From positions 1-22,660 of IMG/VR virus record IMGVR_UViG_3300031952_000161: DNA of 22,660 nt. The stretch is one strand, 5' to 3'. The DNA comes from a virus. How positions within the stretch are numbered: the stretch's first letter is position 1; each line of letters starts with the position of its first letter. The translations under genes and the position numbers were made by a program. This document shows positions 3-19,701 of this stretch, one piece after another. The notes under the pieces are model-generated. The model did no database searches and was not told the DNA's origin. It worked only from the letters and a program-made list of their open reading frames with translations.

Positions 3-2903
3 GGAGAACCGTCTCATGCTACAGCTTTAGATTATTTAATTAATAAATATGATTGGAATACTCAATCATCTACTAGTGTTGAAAATATACAACCAGGTCT
101 TGATCTTTACAAAAATGCTCTTACAAAAGAAGAACAAAAAGAGTTTTATCAATTTGGTAAATCTGTTCTTGAACAACATGGTTATAATCCTTTTCCAGGA
201 TATGTAATGGCTTCAGCTGGTCAAATGGAATGGAGTCCTGAAATGGTTGTAGATAAACAAGGGAAATTAATAAATAGAGGGGAAAATTACAATAAAAAAA
301 TTACTTCTCATAAGAAAAAAGTTAAAGGTACAGATGGTGCAAAAGGTAATAGATTTACATACCATTATTATTTATCTAATTTAGATGGTAGTGGTATAAT
401 ACCTATTCCAGCTAATATAATTAACAGTTTAGAAAAGATCACAGGACAAAACATGTCTAATTATGATACAGTATTAATTAATCTTTATCCTATAGGTAGA
501 ACATTAGGATGGCACGTTGATGTATCAGAAGATTATAGAAACTTAGATAGAGATATTATATCGGTGTCTATAGGTGCTGATGCTGATTTTTATTATGCTA
601 ATACACCAGATGATTTTATATCAGGAGATCCTGAAAAATCAGGTTATACTGTTGAAAGTAAAAATTTAAAAAGTGGTGATATAATTGCTTTTGGAGGAAA
701 ATCAAGATTAATATCACATACTGTAAAAAATGTTAGTGGTACAACTGATTTAGGATCAATTGATCTTAGTAATTCTAATGTAAATGAGTTTTTTAAAGGA
801 GGTCTTAGTTTAGATAATTGGAGAATGAACTTTACATTTAGAGTAGCTGATCCCACTAATAACAAAGGTAAAAAAGCAATATCTACTCAATCATCTACTA
901 GTGTTGAAAAAAATGTCACTTTTGAAACAGCTGCCGGTAGTATATATACAATGTATCCTAATGGAAGAGTAGATAGATATAAAACAGCTACTAAAGAAAA
1001 ACAAGAAACAAATGATCTTATAGTATTTGTGAAGTTCAAAAGTCCAGAGCAAAAGCAAGATTTCTTACATGGAGTTCAAAGAAGACAAACATCTGGGACT
1101 AAAGTATATGTTATTGATGAAAAAGGTAATAAATATTCTAAAGGTTCTGATATAAAAGGTAAAGATGTAAAGCTTGTTTTAGTAGAAACCAAAACTAATA
1201 AAGTAATAGATATGGTTGAAACTAAACAAGAACCCACTATTGGTTATAATACTTATGACGAGAGTAGATATGTTGAGAATGGAGAGGCAATGAGAAGAAT
1301 GCATATTGGTAATGAAGTAACTAAAATTACATCTACTCAACCATCTACTAATACTCAAATTATAAATAATAAAGGTAGCAAGGTTAGAGATTTAAAAACA
1401 GGATTAATAGGTACTACAAATGGTTCTTTTGCAGAAAATTATGTTAATGTACTTTTTGAAAATGGTGATGAAATAGAAATTAACAAGAAAGATTTAGAAT
1501 TAATTACTACTCAACCATCTTCTAGTGTTACAGGTACTTTACCTAGACTAGATAATAATGTACAAGGAACACTTTTTTCATTAAAGGGTATTATAACGGA
1601 AAAAGCAAGTGAAAAATTAGATAAAATGTTAATAGAATATCTTAAACCTTTTAATATTAAATATGATGATATTAACAAAATAAAAGAAAGATATGATGTT
1701 GATAGTTTGGGTGCTGTTGATATTATTCAAAAAGTAATGTATTTAGCAGAAGAAAGAGATATTCAAACTCTTCCTGAAGAATTTTCTCATTTATTAGTTA
1801 TGTTAATGGGAGAAGCTAATCCAATAATAGAGGATTTATTAATAAATATATCTTCTTGGAGTGGATATAATGATATTTTAAATAAATATAATAAAAGATA
1901 TGAAGGAAATATTAAAAAAATAAAAGTTGAAGCTATAGGTCAATTAATTGGAAAAGCAATTGTAAGTAATTTTAAATCTGAAAATACTCAAGAACAATCT
2001 TGGTTTACTAAAATTAAAAATGCTATTTTAAACTTTTTTACTAAAGCTTCTAAAGAAGAAAAATTAATATATAATATAGCAGATAGAATAGCTAAAGATG
2101 TTTTAAAAGGTAAACAATTAGTTGAGATTCCTGAATTAGGAGGAAAAAGACCTTTAATGTATGATAAAATATTAGCAGATTATCCTGTTGTAAAAGAAAT
2201 AGTTAATAAATTTTCAAAAGAACTTCCTTTTAAGCTTACAGGTAGTTTAGCTATTGCTAAAGAACAGAACATATACAGACAAGAACAACAACCTCATGAT
2301 TTAGATTTTTCAGTTCCTTATAGTTGGGTACAAAGAAATCCAAATGTAGAAGATTTCTTTAAATTATTTGATGAACCTAACATAGAACAAGCACATGAAG
2401 GTTATTATAAAGATAATGAGATTTGTTTTTCATATTATATTTTAAAAGAAGGGTATACATTTGATAAATCAAAAACATTAAAAAATGTAAATAAAGCTGT
2501 TAAACAACCTTTTTTAGATTTATCAATTTTAAATAATAAAGGAGAAGAAGTAAAAGTATTAGATGTTATAAATGATAATATATTAATGGGAGTAGATTTC
2601 TTTTATCCTTTAGTAAATAAAGAAGAAAATTACAATGATAATGTTAATTCTTCACAATCTGTTTATGAAGGTAAATTAAATTTACAAGGAACTAATGAAA
2701 ATAATGAAGTGTTTTTTCAAAGACTTAAAGATCAAAATGATTATATAATTAGTAATTTTGAAAATCGTCAAAATCCTTTATTAAGTCATTTATATTTTAA
2801 TTTGTCTGATAATGAAGCAAAAAATGTAATTAAGAGTATAAATAATAGTATTTCTCAGAAAGATGTAGAAGATAATTCCATACAATGTAACCTAGACCTA
2901 TAA
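3..2903 (+). CDS. Giant multidomain (polyvalent-type) protein, 5'-truncated: AlkB-like dioxygenase + beta module + EEFSH segment + nucleotidyltransferase-like domain
   Basis: The frame is open to the left edge, so the gene starts outside the window and the ATG at 207 is internal. 966 codons are in view; residues are counted from the codon at nt 3. Residues 28-294 form an AlkB-type 2OG-Fe(II) dioxygenase: iron ligands H171 and D173 (GWHVD) and H239 (LISH), then R274 and R280 in NWRMNFTFR for 2-oxoglutarate. Members of this family demethylate nucleic acid bases. Residues about 303-444 are unrecognised. About 452-501 is a small beta-rich, SH3-like stretch. Residues 592-596 read EEFSH, followed by a helical region. 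About 740-850 look like a nucleotidyltransferase: GS at 747-748, DLD at 766-768, and a third Asp at 839 in FLDLSI. Four copies of a TQSSTSVE-like linker separate modules (about 20, 295, 445, 503). Ending TAA lies 5 nt before the next gene. The AlkB call is strong, the nucleotidyltransferase moderate and the rest weak. Packaging and injection with phage DNA is inference. Confidence 0.85.
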   Translation, partial: GEPSHATALDYLINKYDWNTQSSTSVENIQPGLDLYKNALTKEEQKEFYQFGKSVLEQHGYNPFPGYVMASAGQMEWSPEMVVDKQGKLINRGENYNKKITSHKKKVKGTDGAKGNRFTYHYYLSNLDGSGIIPIPANIINSLEKITGQNMSNYDTVLINLYPIGRTLGWHVDVSEDYRNLDRDIISVSIGADADFYYANTPDDFISGDPEKSGYTVESKNLKSGDIIAFGGKSRLISHTVKNVSGTTDLGSIDLSNSNVNEFFKGGLSLDNWRMNFTFRVADPTNNKGKKAISTQSSTSVEKNVTFETAAGSIYTMYPNGRVDRYKTATKEKQETNDLIVFVKFKSPEQKQDFLHGVQRRQTSGTKVYVIDEKGNKYSKGSDIKGKDVKLVLVETKTNKVIDMVETKQEPTIGYNTYDESRYVENGEAMRRMHIGNEVTKITSTQPSTNTQIINNKGSKVRDLKTGLIGTTNGSFAENYVNVLFENGDEIEINKKDLELITTQPSSSVTGTLPRLDNNVQGTLFSLKGIITEKASEKLDKMLIEYLKPFNIKYDDINKIKERYDVDSLGAVDIIQKVMYLAEERDIQTLPEEFSHLLVMLMGEANPIIEDLLINISSWSGYNDILNKYNKRYEGNIKKIKVEAIGQLIGKAIVSNFKSENTQEQSWFTKIKNAILNFFTKASKEEKLIYNIADRIAKDVLKGKQLVEIPELGGKRPLMYDKILADYPVVKEIVNKFSKELPFKLTGSLAIAKEQNIYRQEQQPHDLDFSVPYSWVQRNPNVEDFFKLFDEPNIEQAHEGYYKDNEICFSYYILKEGYTFDKSKTLKNVNKAVKQPFLDLSILNNKGEEVKVLDVINDNILMGVDFFYPLVNKEENYNDNVNSSQSVYEGKLNLQGTNENNEVFFQRLKDQNDYIISNFENRQNPLLSHLYFNLSDNEAKNVIKSINNSISQKDVEDNSIQCNLDL

Positions 2904-2908
2904 AAATT

Positions 2909-5900
2909 ATGATTTGTCCAAAATTTAATACCCAATCAGTAAAAAAATTAGAAAGTTATTTTACAACTCAAGGAGTAATGGAAATATATTCTAAATTACA
3001 AACTCCAGAATTTATAAGTTGGTTTAGTGGAGATGCTTCTATAAAAACAAAGGAAGCAGCAGATGAATTTATACAAAATAATAGTATTAATTCTATTAAT
3101 ATAGATAATGACTTTAATGTAGGTAATATAGATAATTCCAGTTTTTTACCTCTAACTAAATTTGTAACATTGTCTGATAATAATGGTAAAAAATTATCTT
3201 CTTCTGAATTAAAAGAAAAAATTGAGTATAATTTTTTTATCAAAACACTAGAACAAAGAAATGAAGATACAAAAAATGTCAATAATAGATATGAATATCA
3301 AGGTAAACCTTTATTGCATAGAGCCACTGACTTTGTTAAAAGATTTTATGAGTCTATTTTTAGAAATCCAAATAAAGAATTTGAAGAAAGAGCCCTAATT
3401 CTTGCTAAAAAAGGAACAGTTACTCATAGATATTTAGAATTAATTGGAGATAACACAATTAAAAAAGTAAATAAAACTTTAGAAGAAATAAGACAAGATG
3501 TAATTGATAGTTTTAAAGATAATCCAGATTTTAAAAATTTACCTGAAAAGTTTTTTAGTTATACTGATGATGAGATTAGACAGTGTAGAGAATATGTACA
3601 GAATATTATATTTGATATTTATGAACAAGATCCTGATGCTAAAATTTATACAGAGTTTAAAATAATAGATCCGGAAGCTTCTGTAGGTGCTACTTTAGAT
3701 TTAGTAGCTTTTTTATCTAATGGAAGAGTTTTAATTTATGATTGGAAATCTATGTTAGATTCTAATTTTATTGGAGAAGAAGATAATTTAGATTTAAAAG
3801 AATATAAAAAACAAGCATTTAATATTCAATTAAATAAACACAGAGAAATACTTGTTAAATCTTATAATGTAAAAAGAGAAAATGTTGAAACTAAAGCAGT
3901 TCCAATAATATATTCTATGCATTCAGATAAAAAAGGAAATATAAATGTAAAAAAAGGATTTAAAGAATTTAATATAGGAAATTATCCTGAATTTTTTGCT
4001 TTCAACTCTTTGACTAGACACCAAGATTTAAATAATATAATAGATAAAATGACTTTAAGAAGAAAAAGTCTTGAAACTAAATTAAAAAAAGACAGAAAGA
4101 ATCCTAAAATATTAAGTGATTTAAAACTTGTGGATAATATTCTTAGAGAAATACATGAAGAATTTAAAATAGATGCTTTATATAATAATTTATCTACTTT
4201 GTTACTAAGATTTGATAGTTTATTTAAAAGTATATCTGAAAATCCAGACACTGATTTTATTAATGATATGGCAAATATTTCTAATGAAATATCTTTATAC
4301 AAAAGTATTTTAGAAGATGTGTCTAAATATAATGAAAGTAGAAAACAAGATGCTAATTTTAATTATCAAGAAAATAATGAAAAAATAGCAATATTATCTA
4401 AAAGTATTTTTAATTCTGAAAGTCAGATAACTGCTTATTTTAGTGATTATATTACTAATAAGCTAAAAAGTACAGGTAGTTTTTTAGATATTAAAAATAT
4501 CTCAGAAGGAGGTTTTTTACAAAACTTTGAAGCTATTTCTGATATAAAAAATCCAATTATAAAAGCATTATATCCTCTTGTTTTAGCTCCCTCTGAAAAT
4601 GAAACAGTTTCTAAATTAAGAACTTTTAAAGAAACGGTTAAAGACTTTGAAAGAGATTTAAATGCTTATGCAAAAGAAAAAAATATGTCTTTAAATGAAG
4701 TTATAAGTATGTTTTTAAATGAGAATAAAGATTTTACAGGAAAGTTTGATAAAGAATATTTTAAGACTAAAAACTTAAAAATGCAGGAGTTAAAAAGTGA
4801 TACTCCTAAAATAAGAAAAGAAGCTATTAAATGGTTAAAAGAGAATAGTGAATTTGCTATAGAAGACTATGAAAATTATAAACAAAAAAGTTTTAAAGTA
4901 ATAGAAGATACGTATTTTGAAGATGAGGCTTTAGTATCAAAAGCAAAAGAAGATTTTGAAAAAACATTTGATATTACAAAACATGAATCTGCTTATCAAT
5001 CTAAAAATACTTTTATAAGATTAAAAGAATCAGATGAAAAAAATCTTTCTGAAAAATATAAAGTATTAAAGAATGATAAAAGACTATTAAATATTTTTAA
5101 TTATTTTCAAGATTTTAATAGGCAAGCCCGAAGAATTACAGGGAGAGAGTTAAAAGATAATTTTAATCCGAATGTACAAATGAGTTTTGCTCAAGCAGTT
5201 TCTGAAAATGGAAAATCTTTGTCTTCTATTCCTTCAAGTTTAAAAGAAGCCCTTGTTAATTCTTTTACAACTAGTGTAGAAGATGATGTAGTTTTAGGCA
5301 CTATTAATCCCGATGGTACAAAATCTGGAAATGTACCTTTATATTTTACAGAGTTGTTTATGCCGGAATTATCAGAACAAATAAAAACTTCTATAAAAGA
5401 AGGTTTAAATAATGATATAAAAAAAGGAGTTGCTGAATTTAAAAATTTAAAAGAAAATACTTTAGAATATGAAAATGAATTAAACAGAAGAATTTATAAA
5501 GAAAAAAATAAAGAAGCTATTAAAAACAAATCTTCTAATTTTTTGAATAATTATTTATTATTTGCAGAAAGTGTTTTTAGTTATGAGGCTTTAAATAATA
5601 GATTAGATATTGTTTATGCATTACAAAATTTATTAGATGCTTCTAGTCATGCTCCTACAAGCAGTACAGGAAATACATTTTTTAGTAATAATCTTACTAA
5701 AATAATGACAGTTGCTGGGGCTACTAAAGACGATAAAGAATTATTTGAAAAAGTAGTTAATCAGCATATTTTTGGTAATAAAATTTATTCAAAAGACGCA
5801 ACTATTAAACTATCTGGAGGTAAAAAAATATCTAGTATTAAGACTATAAATACTATAATGTCTTGGTTTTCTTTAAACGTATTAGGACTTAAACTTAATC

Positions 5901-7309
5901 TTGCTATTTATAATACTGTTCAAATAAGAGCAGCTAAAATAGTTCTAGCAAGAGAGGGAGTATACATGAACGCTGAGTCAAGTAAAAAATCTATAATAGA
6001 ATTAACAAAAGACAAAGATAAATGGTTGGCTTTTGGAGAGTTTATGGGAGTGGATCCTAGAGGATTAATAAATAAAGAAACAAGAACAATTGGTAGAAGT
6101 AAAATAGGTAAGTTACTAAATACTAATACTGCTTTTATAGGATTAACTATTCCTGAAGAACTCCAATCTTTTGATACTTTAGTTTCTATGAGTAATTTTT
6201 ATAGAGTTGTTAATAATAAAATAATTAATCCTCAAAAATTATGGAGAGAAGGAGACACAAAAGAAACTTTTGAAAGAAGATTGTCAAATTATCCCACAGT
6301 TTATGAGTCTATAGAAAAAACAAAAAAAGAAAATTCTGATGGTACTGTGGATTATGGAATTAAAAGTATTATTTCAGAAGAAGAGTTAAATAATTTTAGA
6401 TTAGTAGTTAGAAAAGTAAATAGTAGTATTACGGGTAATACTTCTGAATATGATAAATCTGTTGCATCTGGTAATATATATTTAAGAATATTAATGCAGA
6501 TGAGAAATTGGATACCTTTAACAGCAAAACAAAGACTTGCTAAAACCAGAATTGATACTGCTACTAATCAAATAGATGTAGGAAGATATGCTGCATTAGT
6601 TGGAGAGTTTTCAGTTTTAGGAGCCAATAAATTAGAAACAGTATTAAACTTAATTAAAGAAATAGGTTTATTTGGATATAACAAAGATAGTATAGCAAAT
6701 AGAGCAGTAGCTGAGTATTATTACACAGAATGGTTAGAAAGACAATTTCCTAATGATATAGAAAAAGGTAAATTAATCGTACCTTTTGAACAATATTTAA
6801 AATTAAGAGATAATAAATTGAAAGCAGCTGCTTTTGAAGCAAGAATAATTATTCTATTTATGATGGTTATAGCATCTTTATCTGCAGATTGGGATGATGA
6901 TGGGGAAGAAAATTACAAAGAATTTTATGGAGGTAAAGAAGCTTTTAAAATTTTAAACAGGTCTTATAATGAGTTAACATTTTTTATAAGCCCTGATTCT
7001 GCTGTTAATATAACAAAAGGTGCTGTACCTGTTGTAACTTTTATGCAAAAATCTGTACAACTAATGTATAATACTTATGATGAAACTAGAGATTTTATTT
7101 CTATATATACTACAGGACAAGATAAAAAAGGAATATGGAGAAAAGATACAAATGATATTAGTCCTATGTTACATTATTTTCTTTGGTTTTTTCCAGGTGT
7201 TTCTAATTTAAATTCAAATTTAGGTATTGACCAAGAATTATCAGAAGTAGTAGGAACACAGTTAGTAGAAAAAGAAAAAGAGACGGGACCTAATAGGATT
7301 AATAAGTAA
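2909..7309 (+). CDS. Giant protein with N-terminal PD-(D/E)XK nuclease domain and long helical tail
   Basis: 1466 residues. The ATG sits 5 nt after the previous stop in the context TAAAAATTATG. A Cas4/RecB-type PD-(D/E)XK nuclease occupies roughly residues 160-320: GTVTH (H173), E249 in TEFKI, D264 in GATLDLV, the D278-W-K280 core, then QLNKHREIL as the helical Q motif. All catalytic positions are present, so an active Mg-dependent DNase is plausible. The remaining 1100 or so residues are mostly helical, Lys/Glu/Asn-rich and unassigned. The region of about 985-1240 (from WFSLNVLGLKLNLAIY to the stretch around RNWIPLTAKQR) has the look of the long conserved tails of phage polyvalent proteins. 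A single hydrophobic segment near residue 1310 (ARIIILFMMVIASLSADW) could cross a membrane and is followed by an acidic DWDDDGEE patch. With its neighbour it probably forms part of the virion cargo that enters the cell with the DNA; this is inference. Confidence 0.85.
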   Translation: MICPKFNTQSVKKLESYFTTQGVMEIYSKLQTPEFISWFSGDASIKTKEAADEFIQNNSINSINIDNDFNVGNIDNSSFLPLTKFVTLSDNNGKKLSSSELKEKIEYNFFIKTLEQRNEDTKNVNNRYEYQGKPLLHRATDFVKRFYESIFRNPNKEFEERALILAKKGTVTHRYLELIGDNTIKKVNKTLEEIRQDVIDSFKDNPDFKNLPEKFFSYTDDEIRQCREYVQNIIFDIYEQDPDAKIYTEFKIIDPEASVGATLDLVAFLSNGRVLIYDWKSMLDSNFIGEEDNLDLKEYKKQAFNIQLNKHREILVKSYNVKRENVETKAVPIIYSMHSDKKGNINVKKGFKEFNIGNYPEFFAFNSLTRHQDLNNIIDKMTLRRKSLETKLKKDRKNPKILSDLKLVDNILREIHEEFKIDALYNNLSTLLLRFDSLFKSISENPDTDFINDMANISNEISLYKSILEDVSKYNESRKQDANFNYQENNEKIAILSKSIFNSESQITAYFSDYITNKLKSTGSFLDIKNISEGGFLQNFEAISDIKNPIIKALYPLVLAPSENETVSKLRTFKETVKDFERDLNAYAKEKNMSLNEVISMFLNENKDFTGKFDKEYFKTKNLKMQELKSDTPKIRKEAIKWLKENSEFAIEDYENYKQKSFKVIEDTYFEDEALVSKAKEDFEKTFDITKHESAYQSKNTFIRLKESDEKNLSEKYKVLKNDKRLLNIFNYFQDFNRQARRITGRELKDNFNPNVQMSFAQAVSENGKSLSSIPSSLKEALVNSFTTSVEDDVVLGTINPDGTKSGNVPLYFTELFMPELSEQIKTSIKEGLNNDIKKGVAEFKNLKENTLEYENELNRRIYKEKNKEAIKNKSSNFLNNYLLFAESVFSYEALNNRLDIVYALQNLLDASSHAPTSSTGNTFFSNNLTKIMTVAGATKDDKELFEKVVNQHIFGNKIYSKDATIKLSGGKKISSIKTINTIMSWFSLNVLGLKLNLAIYNTVQIRAAKIVLAREGVYMNAESSKKSIIELTKDKDKWLAFGEFMGVDPRGLINKETRTIGRSKIGKLLNTNTAFIGLTIPEELQSFDTLVSMSNFYRVVNNKIINPQKLWREGDTKETFERRLSNYPTVYESIEKTKKENSDGTVDYGIKSIISEEELNNFRLVVRKVNSSITGNTSEYDKSVASGNIYLRILMQMRNWIPLTAKQRLAKTRIDTATNQIDVGRYAALVGEFSVLGANKLETVLNLIKEIGLFGYNKDSIANRAVAEYYYTEWLERQFPNDIEKGKLIVPFEQYLKLRDNKLKAAAFEARIIILFMMVIASLSADWDDDGEENYKEFYGGKEAFKILNRSYNELTFFISPDSAVNITKGAVPVVTFMQKSVQLMYNTYDETRDFISIYTTGQDKKGIWRKDTNDISPMLHYFLWFFPGVSNLNSNLGIDQELSEVVGTQLVEKEKETGPNRINK

Positions 7310-7326: not shown

Positions 7327-7926
7327 ATGGCATATCCAAAATCAGTTAAAAAATTTTTAAATGACTTAATAGAAAATTGCCAGAATAATAATGTTACTTT
7401 AAAACTAGAATATAAGAAGAATATAGCACTTTACAACACTAAGTTTGACGGATACTTTGCTGCTTCAAACCCATTAGTGTTAGCTGTAGCTACAAAGAAA
7501 GAACTAGATAAATGGTTAGAAGTACTTGTTCATGAAAGTTGTCATTTAGATCAACATCTAGAAGAAACATTTTCTATAGAAATAGATAACTTTAAAATAT
7601 TAAATGATTGGATATCTGGTACACCTCAAAAAAAGACTAAAGTTATACAGGCTGTAAATACGATTAAAAAGTATGAACTTGATTGTGAGAAAAGAGGAGT
7701 GGAAAAAATAATAAAGTATAATTTACCAATAGATACTACAACTTATATAAAAAAATCTAATATTTATGTTTTCTATTATAACTGGGTATTAGAAAATAGA
7801 ACTTTTGGTAAAGGTAAAATATATAATAATGAAATTTTAGAATTAATAAATCCTACTTTTTATAAAAGTTATTCTAAAACTCCTGTATTTTTACAAAACC
7901 ATTTTAATGAAGTATTAAAGAAATAA
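7327..7926 (+). CDS. Zincin-type metalloprotease-like protein
   Basis: 199 residues. HESCH at residues 69-73, inside VLVHESCHLDQHLEE, matches the HExxH zinc-binding motif of zincins. A downstream acidic cluster (E117, D119, E121 in KKYELDCEKRG) could supply the third zinc ligand. There is no signal peptide or membrane segment, so it acts in the cytoplasm or from the virion. It is the last gene of the plus-strand block, 17 nt after the giant nuclease gene, and its stop codon lies inside the terminator hairpin. It might process the neighbouring giant proteins or a host protein, but the sequence does not say which. Motif identification is good; substrate unknown. Confidence 0.75.
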   Translation: MAYPKSVKKFLNDLIENCQNNNVTLKLEYKKNIALYNTKFDGYFAASNPLVLAVATKKELDKWLEVLVHESCHLDQHLEETFSIEIDNFKILNDWISGTPQKKTKVIQAVNTIKKYELDCEKRGVEKIIKYNLPIDTTTYIKKSNIYVFYYNWVLENRTFGKGKIYNNEILELINPTFYKSYSKTPVFLQNHFNEVLKK

Positions 7927-9881: not shown

Positions 9882-10081
9882 TTTAAATCTAATTTATTAA
9901 AGTGTTTAACTATTTCAAATTCTACTTCTCTTCTTTTATTTTCAGGTTTACCTGCTTCCCAATCAATAGTCCAACCTTCATTTTCATCTTTAATTATAAA
10001 GTTATAGTTAAAACCATCTCTTGTGAAAGTACCTTTGTATTTGTTTTCTTCAAAGGCTATTAAGTTTATATGTATGCTCAT
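9878..10081 (-). CDS. Small hypothetical protein downstream of polA
   Basis: 67 residues with start ATG at 10081, which overlaps the polymerase stop as ATGA; a TTG 9 nt upstream gives a slightly longer frame but is less convincing. Residues 1-45 look beta-rich (MSIHINLIAFEENKYKGTF, FNYNFIIKDENEGWTIDWE), and a short helix ends the protein. Its own TGA overlaps the next ATG as ATGA. It is therefore coupled on both sides. No family recognised. Confidence 0.65.
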   Translation of the reverse strand: MSIHINLIAFEENKYKGTFTRDGFNYNFIIKDENEGWTIDWEAGKPENKRREVEFEIVKHFNKLDLK

Positions 10082-12102
10082 TTTATCCAAATTTTTGTGA
10101 TTAAAGGTTCTGCAGTTAATTTAATTGTTTTACACCAATAACTTCCTGCATCTTCCATACTTTTTTGTAATATATCTTTCCATTCAGTAGTTATACTATC
10201 AGGGGTTTCAATAACATATTCATCATGAATAAAGTTTACTATTTTAACAGTCATAAAATTATTAGTTTCTACTATTTTATCAAATAACATTATTCCTGCT
10301 AATTTAGATATTCTTGATGAAATTCCCTGTACGGAATAGTTAACTGATTGTCTGTCTAATTCTGACTTTTTAGAAAAGTATTTTCTTACTTTAGGTTTTA
10401 AAACAGAATTAAACTTTAAAGTATCTTTTGCTTTTTCAATTTTATACTCATTCCAAAACTCATTAGTAAATTCTTTTTTTAATTCTTTAAATTCATCATA
10501 ATAAGGTATAAAACATTTAGAGCCGGTAAGCTCATCAATAGTTATATAACCGTTTTTTAAAGTAGCTTCATGACACTTTTTAAAGTAGTTTCTTAGTCCT
10601 GGAAAACTTTCAAAGTAAGTATTATAAACAAATTCTGCTTGTTCTAAGGTTATTTTACACTGCGCTGCTATGGTTATAGGCGTAGCACCATATACAATAG
10701 CAAAGTTAGCAACTTTGGCTATTTGTCTAAGTTCCGGGTATTGCTTCTTAATTTCTTTTAAACTAAGGTCTTTACATTCAGGATAAATTTGTTTAGCTAC
10801 AAAGCTATGTAAGTCTGATTCTCCTGATGTATAGAACTCTAATAATTTAGGCTCTAGGGACTCATTAGCCAATACAATAGTCTCTTGGCCAGAATAGTCT
10901 GAAATTATTAAACTATTGCTTTCTTCAGCCACAAAACAACCCCTTGTTTCAGGATCTGCAGGTATATTCTGAAAATTAATATAATCAATGTTATTTTGCT
11001 TATCCTGACCACCTGAACTGGTACGTCCACTATCCATTATTTGTGAAAAATTAGTATGAAGTCTGTTAGTTACAGGACTAATAGATTCTATAAAATTTTC
11101 TCCATAAGTAGATACTACTTTGTCTTTTGCTTTATAATTCAAATAAAGTCTCACTATAGGATGTTTATTAATCTCAGCTTCTAATACTGTAGCCTCTAAA
11201 CTGTCTTTAATTTCTTTAGTTTTCTTATCTTTAGTTTTAGTATTAATATCTAATTTATGAAAAATTGGGAGTACTTGTTTAGGAGAGGCCCAATTAATTC
11301 TAATTTTAGTCTCAGTTAAAAATAAGTCTAACTGATTATCAATAAATTTTTCAAAATTTATTCTATTATCTATAATAAAATTATCTAAAATATTTTCAGC
11401 TTCACTAAGATTAATTTTATCTTGTTGTATTTTAGCTAACCATTTGTCTTTGTCTAATTTAAATCCACAATACTCTATGTAGGCTAAACACTTTACATAT
11501 TTATTTTCAAGACTTAAATCTTTAAGTAAATTCCATTTATCTAATTCAGCAAATTGTTTATCCTTTATCTCTTTTAAATATTTAACATCATCAGCAGCAT
11601 ACTTAATAACTTTAGCACTTAAACCTTCTCTATGTATCATACCTCTGACAGTTTTATCCATGATAATATTTAAATACTTTTTACATAAGTAATCTAAAGA
11701 CTTTCTTTCCCAGAGTAGTCCTTTAGTTAGTATTCTTTCTGCTAAATAAGTGTCATAAATATTTACAGGTATAATATTATGATGATATAAGAACTTTAAA
11801 TCAAACTTAGCATTTTGAAATAAGAAAGCTAAATCTTCTCTTTTAAAATATTTTTGTAAAAAAATAAGTTTATCAGAATTAATATAACTCCAATCTATTA
11901 CAAACTGTGTTTTATAATCTCCTATTTGTAAACATATAATATCTTTTGTATGAGGATCAAAACCCGTAGTTTCAGTATCTATTCCTACAAAAGAATCTAA
12001 TATATTATTTTCTAAAGCATCTTTAAAAAAATTCCAATCACAAGTTTTATAAACATCATGAGGTATAGCTTTTGTTTGTTCTGTTACTAAATATATTCCC
12101 AT
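10078..12102 (-). CDS. polA: DNA polymerase I family (family A) with 3'-5' exonuclease
   Basis: 674 residues. The N-terminal DnaQ-like proofreading domain has Exo I D42/E44 (GIDTETTGF), Exo II N97/D101 (FQNAKFDLKF) and Exo III Y168/D172 (YAADDVKYL). The polymerase domain has motif A D402-YSGQ-E407, motif B R459/K463/F467/Y471-G472 (RQIAKVANFAIVYGAT) and motif C H626-D627-E628. All catalytic residues are in place. Motif A reads DYSGQE where most family members have DYSQIE, with D-to-E spacing kept. There is no 5'-nuclease domain; that activity is supplied by a separate gene at 14308-15114. A terminator-like hairpin lies only 18 nt upstream of the start. It ends in ATGA overlap with the next small gene. 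This should be the replicative polymerase of the phage. Confidence 0.97.
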   Translation of the reverse strand: MGIYLVTEQTKAIPHDVYKTCDWNFFKDALENNILDSFVGIDTETTGFDPHTKDIICLQIGDYKTQFVIDWSYINSDKLIFLQKYFKREDLAFLFQNAKFDLKFLYHHNIIPVNIYDTYLAERILTKGLLWERKSLDYLCKKYLNIIMDKTVRGMIHREGLSAKVIKYAADDVKYLKEIKDKQFAELDKWNLLKDLSLENKYVKCLAYIEYCGFKLDKDKWLAKIQQDKINLSEAENILDNFIIDNRINFEKFIDNQLDLFLTETKIRINWASPKQVLPIFHKLDINTKTKDKKTKEIKDSLEATVLEAEINKHPIVRLYLNYKAKDKVVSTYGENFIESISPVTNRLHTNFSQIMDSGRTSSGGQDKQNNIDYINFQNIPADPETRGCFVAEESNSLIISDYSGQETIVLANESLEPKLLEFYTSGESDLHSFVAKQIYPECKDLSLKEIKKQYPELRQIAKVANFAIVYGATPITIAAQCKITLEQAEFVYNTYFESFPGLRNYFKKCHEATLKNGYITIDELTGSKCFIPYYDEFKELKKEFTNEFWNEYKIEKAKDTLKFNSVLKPKVRKYFSKKSELDRQSVNYSVQGISSRISKLAGIMLFDKIVETNNFMTVKIVNFIHDEYVIETPDSITTEWKDILQKSMEDAGSYWCKTIKLTAEPLITKIWIK

Positions 12103-18891: not shown

Positions 18892-19701
18892 TTATTTTTT
18901 TAATTGAGGAAAAATATTTTCCCAGTGAGTTGTTAATACACCTTCTTCATTCATTTCTGACATAAGAAATTCTTTCTCATTTAAATGTCTTGCTCTGGAT
19001 TTAGTAGTTAAATCTTTTTCATTAGTTTTAAAACTAAACATAACTTTATTACCATCTCTGTATATCATTGCACAAGCATCTGAATCTCTTAATAAAGATA
19101 GTTTCATTTTACCTGTTAATGCCATATCATTTGCATCTAATTTTACACCTTGTTTTACTAATGAGCCTTGTTTAGCATGAGCTATGAATATTACACACTC
19201 TTTAGCTAATCCTATACATTGGTCATATAATTCATCCCAAGCTCTATGTATCCATAACCAACCACTTTCAGGTACATCAGTTACTACATCATTAATAATA
19301 GCTCCTTTATTTATCATACCTTTTCCTACAATTGACTGTTTAAATAAATTAGTTGCATGAAGATGAGCTAATTTTTCTATAGCTGTAATACCATCAAAAA
19401 TAATATAATCATAAACATATCCTCCAGCTTTACCATTAGCTAACTTAATAGCTTTAATAGTTTCTAAAAAGGCTGTTCCTAATCCAATATTGTTAGTATT
19501 AGCTACTTCTTTTAAATTCATTCTTTTAGCATGGTAATGTTCTTTACAACCATCTTCAAAATCTACAACAAGACTGTTGGGTAGATTTGCACATAATTGT
19601 GTTTTACCTGTTCCCTGATGACCTACAAGTACTAATTTAGTTACTTTGTCATAAGCTGGAGAAACAGTCCTTTCTTTTGGTAATTCTAATGTTAAACTCA
19701 T
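18892..19701 (-). CDS. Sak4-like / AAA_24-type RecA-fold ATPase
   Basis: 269 residues. Walker A is GHQGTGKT at 27-34, followed by the characteristic NLPNSLVVDFEDG. Walker B ends at D103 in YIIFDGITAIE. A sensor strand VIFIAHAKQG follows, then a C-terminal segment LLRDSDACAMIYRDGNKVMF, typical of phage AAA_24 ATPases related to Rad51/RecA (Sak4). Such proteins promote ssDNA annealing together with a phage SSB, and an SSB-like gene lies two genes downstream. The start follows the previous stop immediately. Confidence 0.88.
   Translation of the reverse strand: MSLTLELPKERTVSPAYDKVTKLVLVGHQGTGKTQLCANLPNSLVVDFEDGCKEHYHAKRMNLKEVANTNNIGLGTAFLETIKAIKLANGKAGGYVYDYIIFDGITAIEKLAHLHATNLFKQSIVGKGMINKGAIINDVVTDVPESGWLWIHRAWDELYDQCIGLAKECVIFIAHAKQGSLVKQGVKLDANDMALTGKMKLSLLRDSDACAMIYRDGNKVMFSFKTNEKDLTTKSRARHLNEKEFLMSEMNEEGVLTTHWENIFPQLKK

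Follow-up and report, generated by a model that had tools for sequence, protein, structure and literature searches.

The giant proteins encoded at the virion RNA polymerase locus of a large group of uncultured crAss-like viruses of bacteria, or by the genes adjoining it, contain arrays of cassettes whose joints are copies of a single DNA word, nearly invariant even at synonymous sites. Homology between genomes breaks at these joints, and single cassettes have passed between phages there. We consider it quite probable that these arrays are remodelled by homology-mediated, in-frame exchange of cassettes at the linkers. All of the exchange events are historical, having been read from metagenome assemblies.

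The array of the window

The window analysed here is an entire IMG/VR contig fragment of 22.66 kb, without structural genes, and its array occupies the start of the first ORF (Table 1). The four linker copies that the original prediction had read there are all present and share one frame. Copies 1 and 2 were claimed to be identical over 27 nt, third codon positions included, and they are: the 27-mer at 59-85 recurs at 884-910 as the sole exact repeat of that length in the window, while the longest repeat in 200 order-3 Markov simulations averaged 16.6 nt and at most reached 20 nt. The last two copies do flank a module of about 50 residues, as proposed, and the 3' half of each departs from the consensus.

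The claim that copies 1 and 2 bracket an AlkB module also held. Residues 71-280 match Pfam 2OG-FeII_Oxy_2 (PF13532; E 6e-20), and an AlphaFold model places a confident AlkB domain at about residues 25-287, leaving both linkers in its low-confidence flanks. The modelled domain superposes on Escherichia coli AlkB with a TM score of 0.78 and has the double-stranded beta-helix fold; H171, D173 and R280 of the HxD...H...R catalytic set are invariant in an alignment (A1), and relatives (L005-L007) share 65-72% amino acid identity with it. For the 143-aa module that follows, no relative was found in the viral contigs searched. The piece ahead of linker 1 was assigned from two related contigs: nt 1-84 are identical to L075, in which the matched r01 cassette is complete, and nt 1-59 to L094, both parting from the window just beyond the linker. 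Against L075, then, identity runs 84 nt up to and across the linker, and the sequences are unrelated beyond it.

Table 1. Coordinates of the linker array, its backbone and a candidate recombination gene in the window
Feature	Position (nt)	Strand	Basis or remark
First ORF with linkers	3-2903	+	5'-truncated (open at 5' end)
End of family r01 cassette (C-terminal, ends GEPSHATALDYLINKYDWN)	3-59	+	5' portion beyond contig
Linker 1, TQSSTSV	60-80	+	Identity with copy 2 covers 59-85
AlkB-type 2OG-Fe(II) dioxygenase cassette	81-884	+	Pfam, fold match, relatives L005-L007
Linker 2, TQSSTSV	885-905	+	Identity with copy 1 covers 884-910
143-aa cassette, function not assigned	906-1334	+	Without relative in viral contigs
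Linker 3, TQPSTNT	1335-1355	+	Departs from consensus in 3' half
51-aa cassette	1356-1508	+	Without family match
Linker 4, TQPSSSV	1509-1529	+	Right end of array
Post-array backbone, partly related to crAss001 gp49 and cr108_1 gp052	1530-2903	+	Sequence matches
gp49/gp052-like backbone continued, second ORF	2909-7309	+	Match to cr108_1 gp052
Sak4-like ssDNA-annealing protein with RecA core (candidate for a role in homology-driven exchange)	18892-19701	-	phrog_124, E 2.5e-10

Identity and exchange at the linker

The linker is a 21-nt word, ACTCAA[C/T]CATCTACTAGTGTT, which encodes TQ[P/S]STSV. Together with its close forms it occurs in 67 viral-contig stretches of IMG/VR, at 1-7 copies per genome, in frame throughout, and almost all of the copies lie in giant ORFs at virion RNA polymerase loci of the crAss-like type. 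When 49 records of up to 122 kb were searched whole, copies with at most 3 mismatches formed a single cluster on one strand, apart from one 3-mismatch stray, and the reversed control pattern gave 0 copies in those same records. The exact word is absent from a collection of bacterial and archaeal species genomes, and the best that a collection of annotated phages offered was a match of 88% over 25 nt. When 18-mers recurring in unrelated contexts were sought de novo in these loci, the linker ranked first with 29 contexts, the next unrelated word reaching 6. As a second universal joint we could put forward just a weak word, in 6 contexts, and rejected it as such; this word, GAACTAGCTGCTTTAGAA, which encodes ELAALE (in many cases with NAKYDA ahead of it), recurs in L014, L019, L031, L046, L082, L098, L105 and L117 and might be an older joint.

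Linker identity is maintained at the level of DNA and not for the sake of the peptide. Among 83 copies of TQ[PS]STSV, 80 share one coding, whose probability given the peptide is 0.004 under the codon usage of these genes. Because the seed pattern could have biased this count, the scan was repeated with five third positions unconstrained; among the 80 loci listed it added just four true linkers with 1-2 synonymous changes each (two independent forms), its remaining new matches being unrelated or due to chance and lying outside linker-type giant ORFs, and ascertainment bias can be discounted. The variants mostly change amino acids: those with at most 2 mismatches comprise 27 nonsynonymous and 4 synonymous changes, as against 739:914 in the surrounding aligned coding DNA (p 2e-6). 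The synonymous share, 13% against a neutral expectation of 27% (p 0.10), fits an absence of selection on the peptide. Identity also outlasts divergence of the carriers, whose polymerase cores have a median amino acid identity of 35%; 232 of 481 pairs below 40% still possess an identical 21-nt linker. Simple descent would have erased such identity, so that either continual exchange or selection on the DNA must maintain it. Homogenisation of the P/S variant within genomes is suggestive, its significance hanging on L075 (p 0.001 with this contig, 0.13 without it).

The ends of arrays are often half-decayed. First linkers often retain their 3' half only (AQPSTSV, DQPSTSV, AKPSTSV) and last linkers often their 5' half only (TQPSTTT, TQPSTQP), for example in L094, L095, L098, L079 and L121. 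This directional decay, on the 5' side of first copies and the 3' side of last ones (p 0.02), is expected if exchange renews only the halves that face inward.

Between the linkers, the cassettes occur in many combinations. With families defined by end-anchored clustering, 124 linkers yielded 105 types of left/right junction; an ART-like family (r02) of 13 copies has 10 kinds of left neighbour, and the AlkB family has 10 among its 10 copies. Homology breaks at a linker in both sequences at 37 of 76 internal HSP ends (HSPs of at least 200 nt and at least 85% identity), whereas a random-shift null gave a mean of 2.1 and a maximum of 7. Individual cassettes reach 96-99% identity in phages whose flanking sequences otherwise diverge: L074 and L075 have one in common at 98.5% amid unrelated flanks, and L075 and L106 one at 96%, their polymerase backbones being 67-75% identical where alignable. 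The converse is also found, since the backbones of L075 and L095 are 93-96% identical on both sides of arrays that are quite different, and the 9.5 kb over which L081 and L115 are 94% identical ends at the first linker of L081.

The original prediction had proposed that DNA-identical linkers make the modules swappable cassettes, and the base-exact loss of homology, fixed third positions and amino acid-changing variants support it. Across 60-odd related contigs, the linkers stay while modules are present, absent, replaced or re-ordered; neither homologues with the same domain order but without linker conservation nor a linker inside a single fold were found.

The RNA polymerase locus and its cassettes

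Linker-bearing ORFs are commonly 2,200-4,800 aa long and have portions related to crAss001 gp47 and gp50. The catalytic DFDGD motif of the relatives aligns with DFDVD of gp50, both of the DxDxD type of RNA polymerase. In most loci the array directly follows the polymerase part, and in L077/L078, L088 and L120 it precedes it; a gp49-like ORF is usually next after the linker-bearing ORF. In the window, the array stands immediately ahead of the gp49-like part, of which residues 568-704 match residues 213-354 of crAss001 gp49 (E 1e-9) and residues 566-679 match cr108_1 gp052 (E 2e-11). The second ORF carries this likeness on, with 24% identity to cr108_1 gp052 over 1,402 aligned columns (E 9e-65). 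At 2880-2909, the gp49/gp052-like protein is split over the end of the first ORF and the start of the second, which is in another frame; its counterpart in cr108_1 is a single 1,714-aa ORF, and the interruption may reflect a true split of the gene, a frameshift or a fault in the assembly.

The window is syntenic with cr108_1, a member of the Crassvirales, and its second ORF and DNA polymerase are similar to those of cr108_1, although the proteins of the RNA polymerase block of cr108_1 contain no linkers. A crAss-type major capsid protein, related to crAss001 gp32, is encoded in 20 of 29 linker-bearing records, in keeping with membership of that order. The DNA polymerase (10078-12102, minus strand) shares 45% identity with the enzyme of Leptolyngbya phage Lbo-JY46, a phage of cyanobacteria, and 40% with that of cr108_1; going by such matches, this crAss-like group may also have hosts outside Bacteroidota. 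A 199-aa ORF (7327-7926) with a weak match to the metallopeptidase-like DUF6782 stands between the polymerase block and the replication genes, which are on the other strand.

In crAss001, gp47, gp49 and gp50 are virion cargo (PMC7886860, PMC10172136), gp49 being RNA polymerase-associated, and mass spectrometry detected all three in crAss001 virions (PMC10172136). Because homologous proteins occur in those virions, the cassettes are probably virion cargo too, delivered into the host with the polymerase.

The 44 complete cassettes have a median length of 153 aa. Their domain matches include many to AlkB, along with NADAR, ART-PolyVal, cpYpsA/SLOG, DprA-like, DUF7831 and Zeta-toxin-like AAA_33, and several common families are without any match. 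This mix resembles that of polyvalent proteins (PMC5512222) and of the NAD/ADP-ribose conflict enzymes of phages (PMC9503650). For r01, the fold model was weak (pLDDT 58) and a PDB search gave no match; its GNPF...GK motif is reminiscent of DUF4326, with no match in Pfam, and is only a lead. A Zeta-toxin/AAA_33 kinase-like match falls in L104 (9043-10446, minus strand), within a separate linker-bearing ORF of 1,097 aa that is not fused to the polymerase.

Mechanism, alternatives and relation to known systems

In the mechanism that we propose, the linkers would serve as in-frame DNA joints, and each cassette, about 150 aa long, would correspond to a single domain with an enzyme or effector function. 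Co-infecting phages, or joints of a single genome, would recombine or anneal at the word of about 21-27 nt, and a cassette would thereby be inserted, deleted or swapped. Given that the same word stands in the same frame at every joint, such exchange would preserve the reading frame; annealing at the word would yield in-frame joins, the word being the sole homology between otherwise unrelated cassettes. An annealing protein or homologous recombinase of phage or host would perform the exchange, whose repetition would keep the joints identical, and the cassettes, entering the host together with the polymerase, would act there as enzymes of early host takeover or counter-defence. A candidate for the homology-driven step is the Sak4-like protein of Table 1, which is encoded in 22 of 29 records (the window and 21 of 28 relatives); phrog_124 also matches cellular RecA-core proteins, and the 7 records without a match are fragments. 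For RecA and lambda Red, a minimal homology of about 30 bp has been quoted (PMC2327257), so that identity over 21-27 nt is close to that limit and slightly short of it.

Should a dedicated enzyme (a site-specific recombinase, homing endonuclease or transposase) target the linker as an att-like site, the very high conservation of its DNA across phages with 18-40% polymerase identity would follow, and the decay of the outermost copies on their outer half (p 0.02) would be that of half-sites. Yet the word lacks long dyad symmetry and tolerates single substitutions, and neither tyrosine (PF00589) nor serine (PF00239) recombinases were found in any of the 29 records, which are themselves incomplete; we regard such an enzyme as unlikely. 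It seems a still poorer prospect that the peptide TQ[P/S]STSV is itself what is conserved, as a flexible spacer or as a protease site freeing the enzymes, even if it is Ser/Thr-rich, lies in frame between domains and is modelled outside the AlkB fold. Synonymous sites should then vary, whereas nearly all copies have the one improbable coding; synonymous variants are few and most variants alter the peptide, and the homology breaks at linkers would be left unexplained. For the same reason, the earlier suggestion that the linkers mark protease sites releasing separate enzymes is unsupported: peptide conservation with free synonymous change was predicted, and the reverse was observed. Fixed synonymous sites and nonsynonymous variants led us to reject a protease or spacer peptide as the cause of the identity, but a secondary role of the linker peptide as a spacer may exist.

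Hardest of all to credit is that the mosaic joins are assembly chimeras formed at a short repeat. Every relative is indeed a metagenome contig and the joint is a repeat of 21-27 nt, but the same arrays recur across IMG samples (L019/L036, L032/L037 and L045/L067), the frame is always kept, the adjoining backbone is continuous on both sides (L075/L095), and chimeras would fail to account for identical linkers in phages whose polymerases are 35% identical. Exchange at the joints by homology thus stays our preferred explanation. A larger proposal, which we entertain tentatively and would put somewhat short of even, is that of a dedicated cassette system at the level of the protein. A universal in-frame DNA joint, which continual exchange would keep identical throughout a large group of phages, would let the virion RNA polymerase locus carry a shared, swappable pool of injected effectors, as an 'in-protein integron without integrase'.

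In-frame domain rearrangement in phages has usually been inferred only from its outcome, whereas in these arrays the joint can itself be seen and put to the test. The word could be used to find new host-takeover or counter-defence enzymes, anything between two joints being a candidate, and as a natural marker of where domains end and where fusions are tolerated on a protein that is probably delivered by the virion. Such exchange would also account for how crAss-like phages may renew the effectors of early infection at a pace that evolution of their backbone does not match. Neither giant conflict proteins nor cassette recombination is without precedent; the novelty, to the extent that it could be checked, lies in a DNA-identical in-frame joint on a virion RNA polymerase with demonstrable exchange, neither the linker nor such joints being reported in the open-access literature (subscription papers lay outside the scope).

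Integrons hold arrays of exchangeable gene cassettes between repeated DNA sites, and the present arrays have this in common with them. Unlike those of integrons, the cassettes here are domains fused within a single ORF, the site forms part of the coding sequence, and no tyrosine recombinase was found in the 29 records. Polymorphic toxin systems (PMC3482391) likewise pair a constant delivery part with recombining effector cassettes; where they have one C-terminal toxin and an immunity gene, however, many cassettes stand in a row inside one protein here, no obvious toxin-immunity pair was noticed, and module content is suggestive of host takeover or NAD/ADP-ribose metabolism. The enzymes of NAD+/ADP-ribose conflict between virus and host (PMC9503650) provide a further parallel in their ART, NADAR and SLOG domains, for which packaging and early deployment are predicted. 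Viral Macro, NADAR and SLOG domains are typically standalone outside RNA-virus polyproteins (PMC9503650), whereas in the present arrays such domains are built into a giant protein as cassettes. As for the crAss-like transcription block of gp47, gp49 and gp50, the backbone of the linker ORFs is made of parts like these, and the accessible portions of PMC7886860 and PMC10172136 report no cassette array for it.

Closest are the polyvalent proteins, or effectors, of phages and conjugative elements described by Iyer et al. 2017 (PMC5512222), which are giant multidomain phage proteins, probably delivered early, that string together conflict domains. Several unrelated conflict-type domains share one phage polypeptide here too, ART-PolyVal matches among them. 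Cassette-like recombinational variability was already raised in that work for one locus type, and the words 'linker' and 'crAss' are absent from its text (PMC5512222). The present arrays differ in that their domains lie on or beside a crAss-like virion RNA polymerase, are connected by one DNA-identical joint, and demonstrably exchange there.
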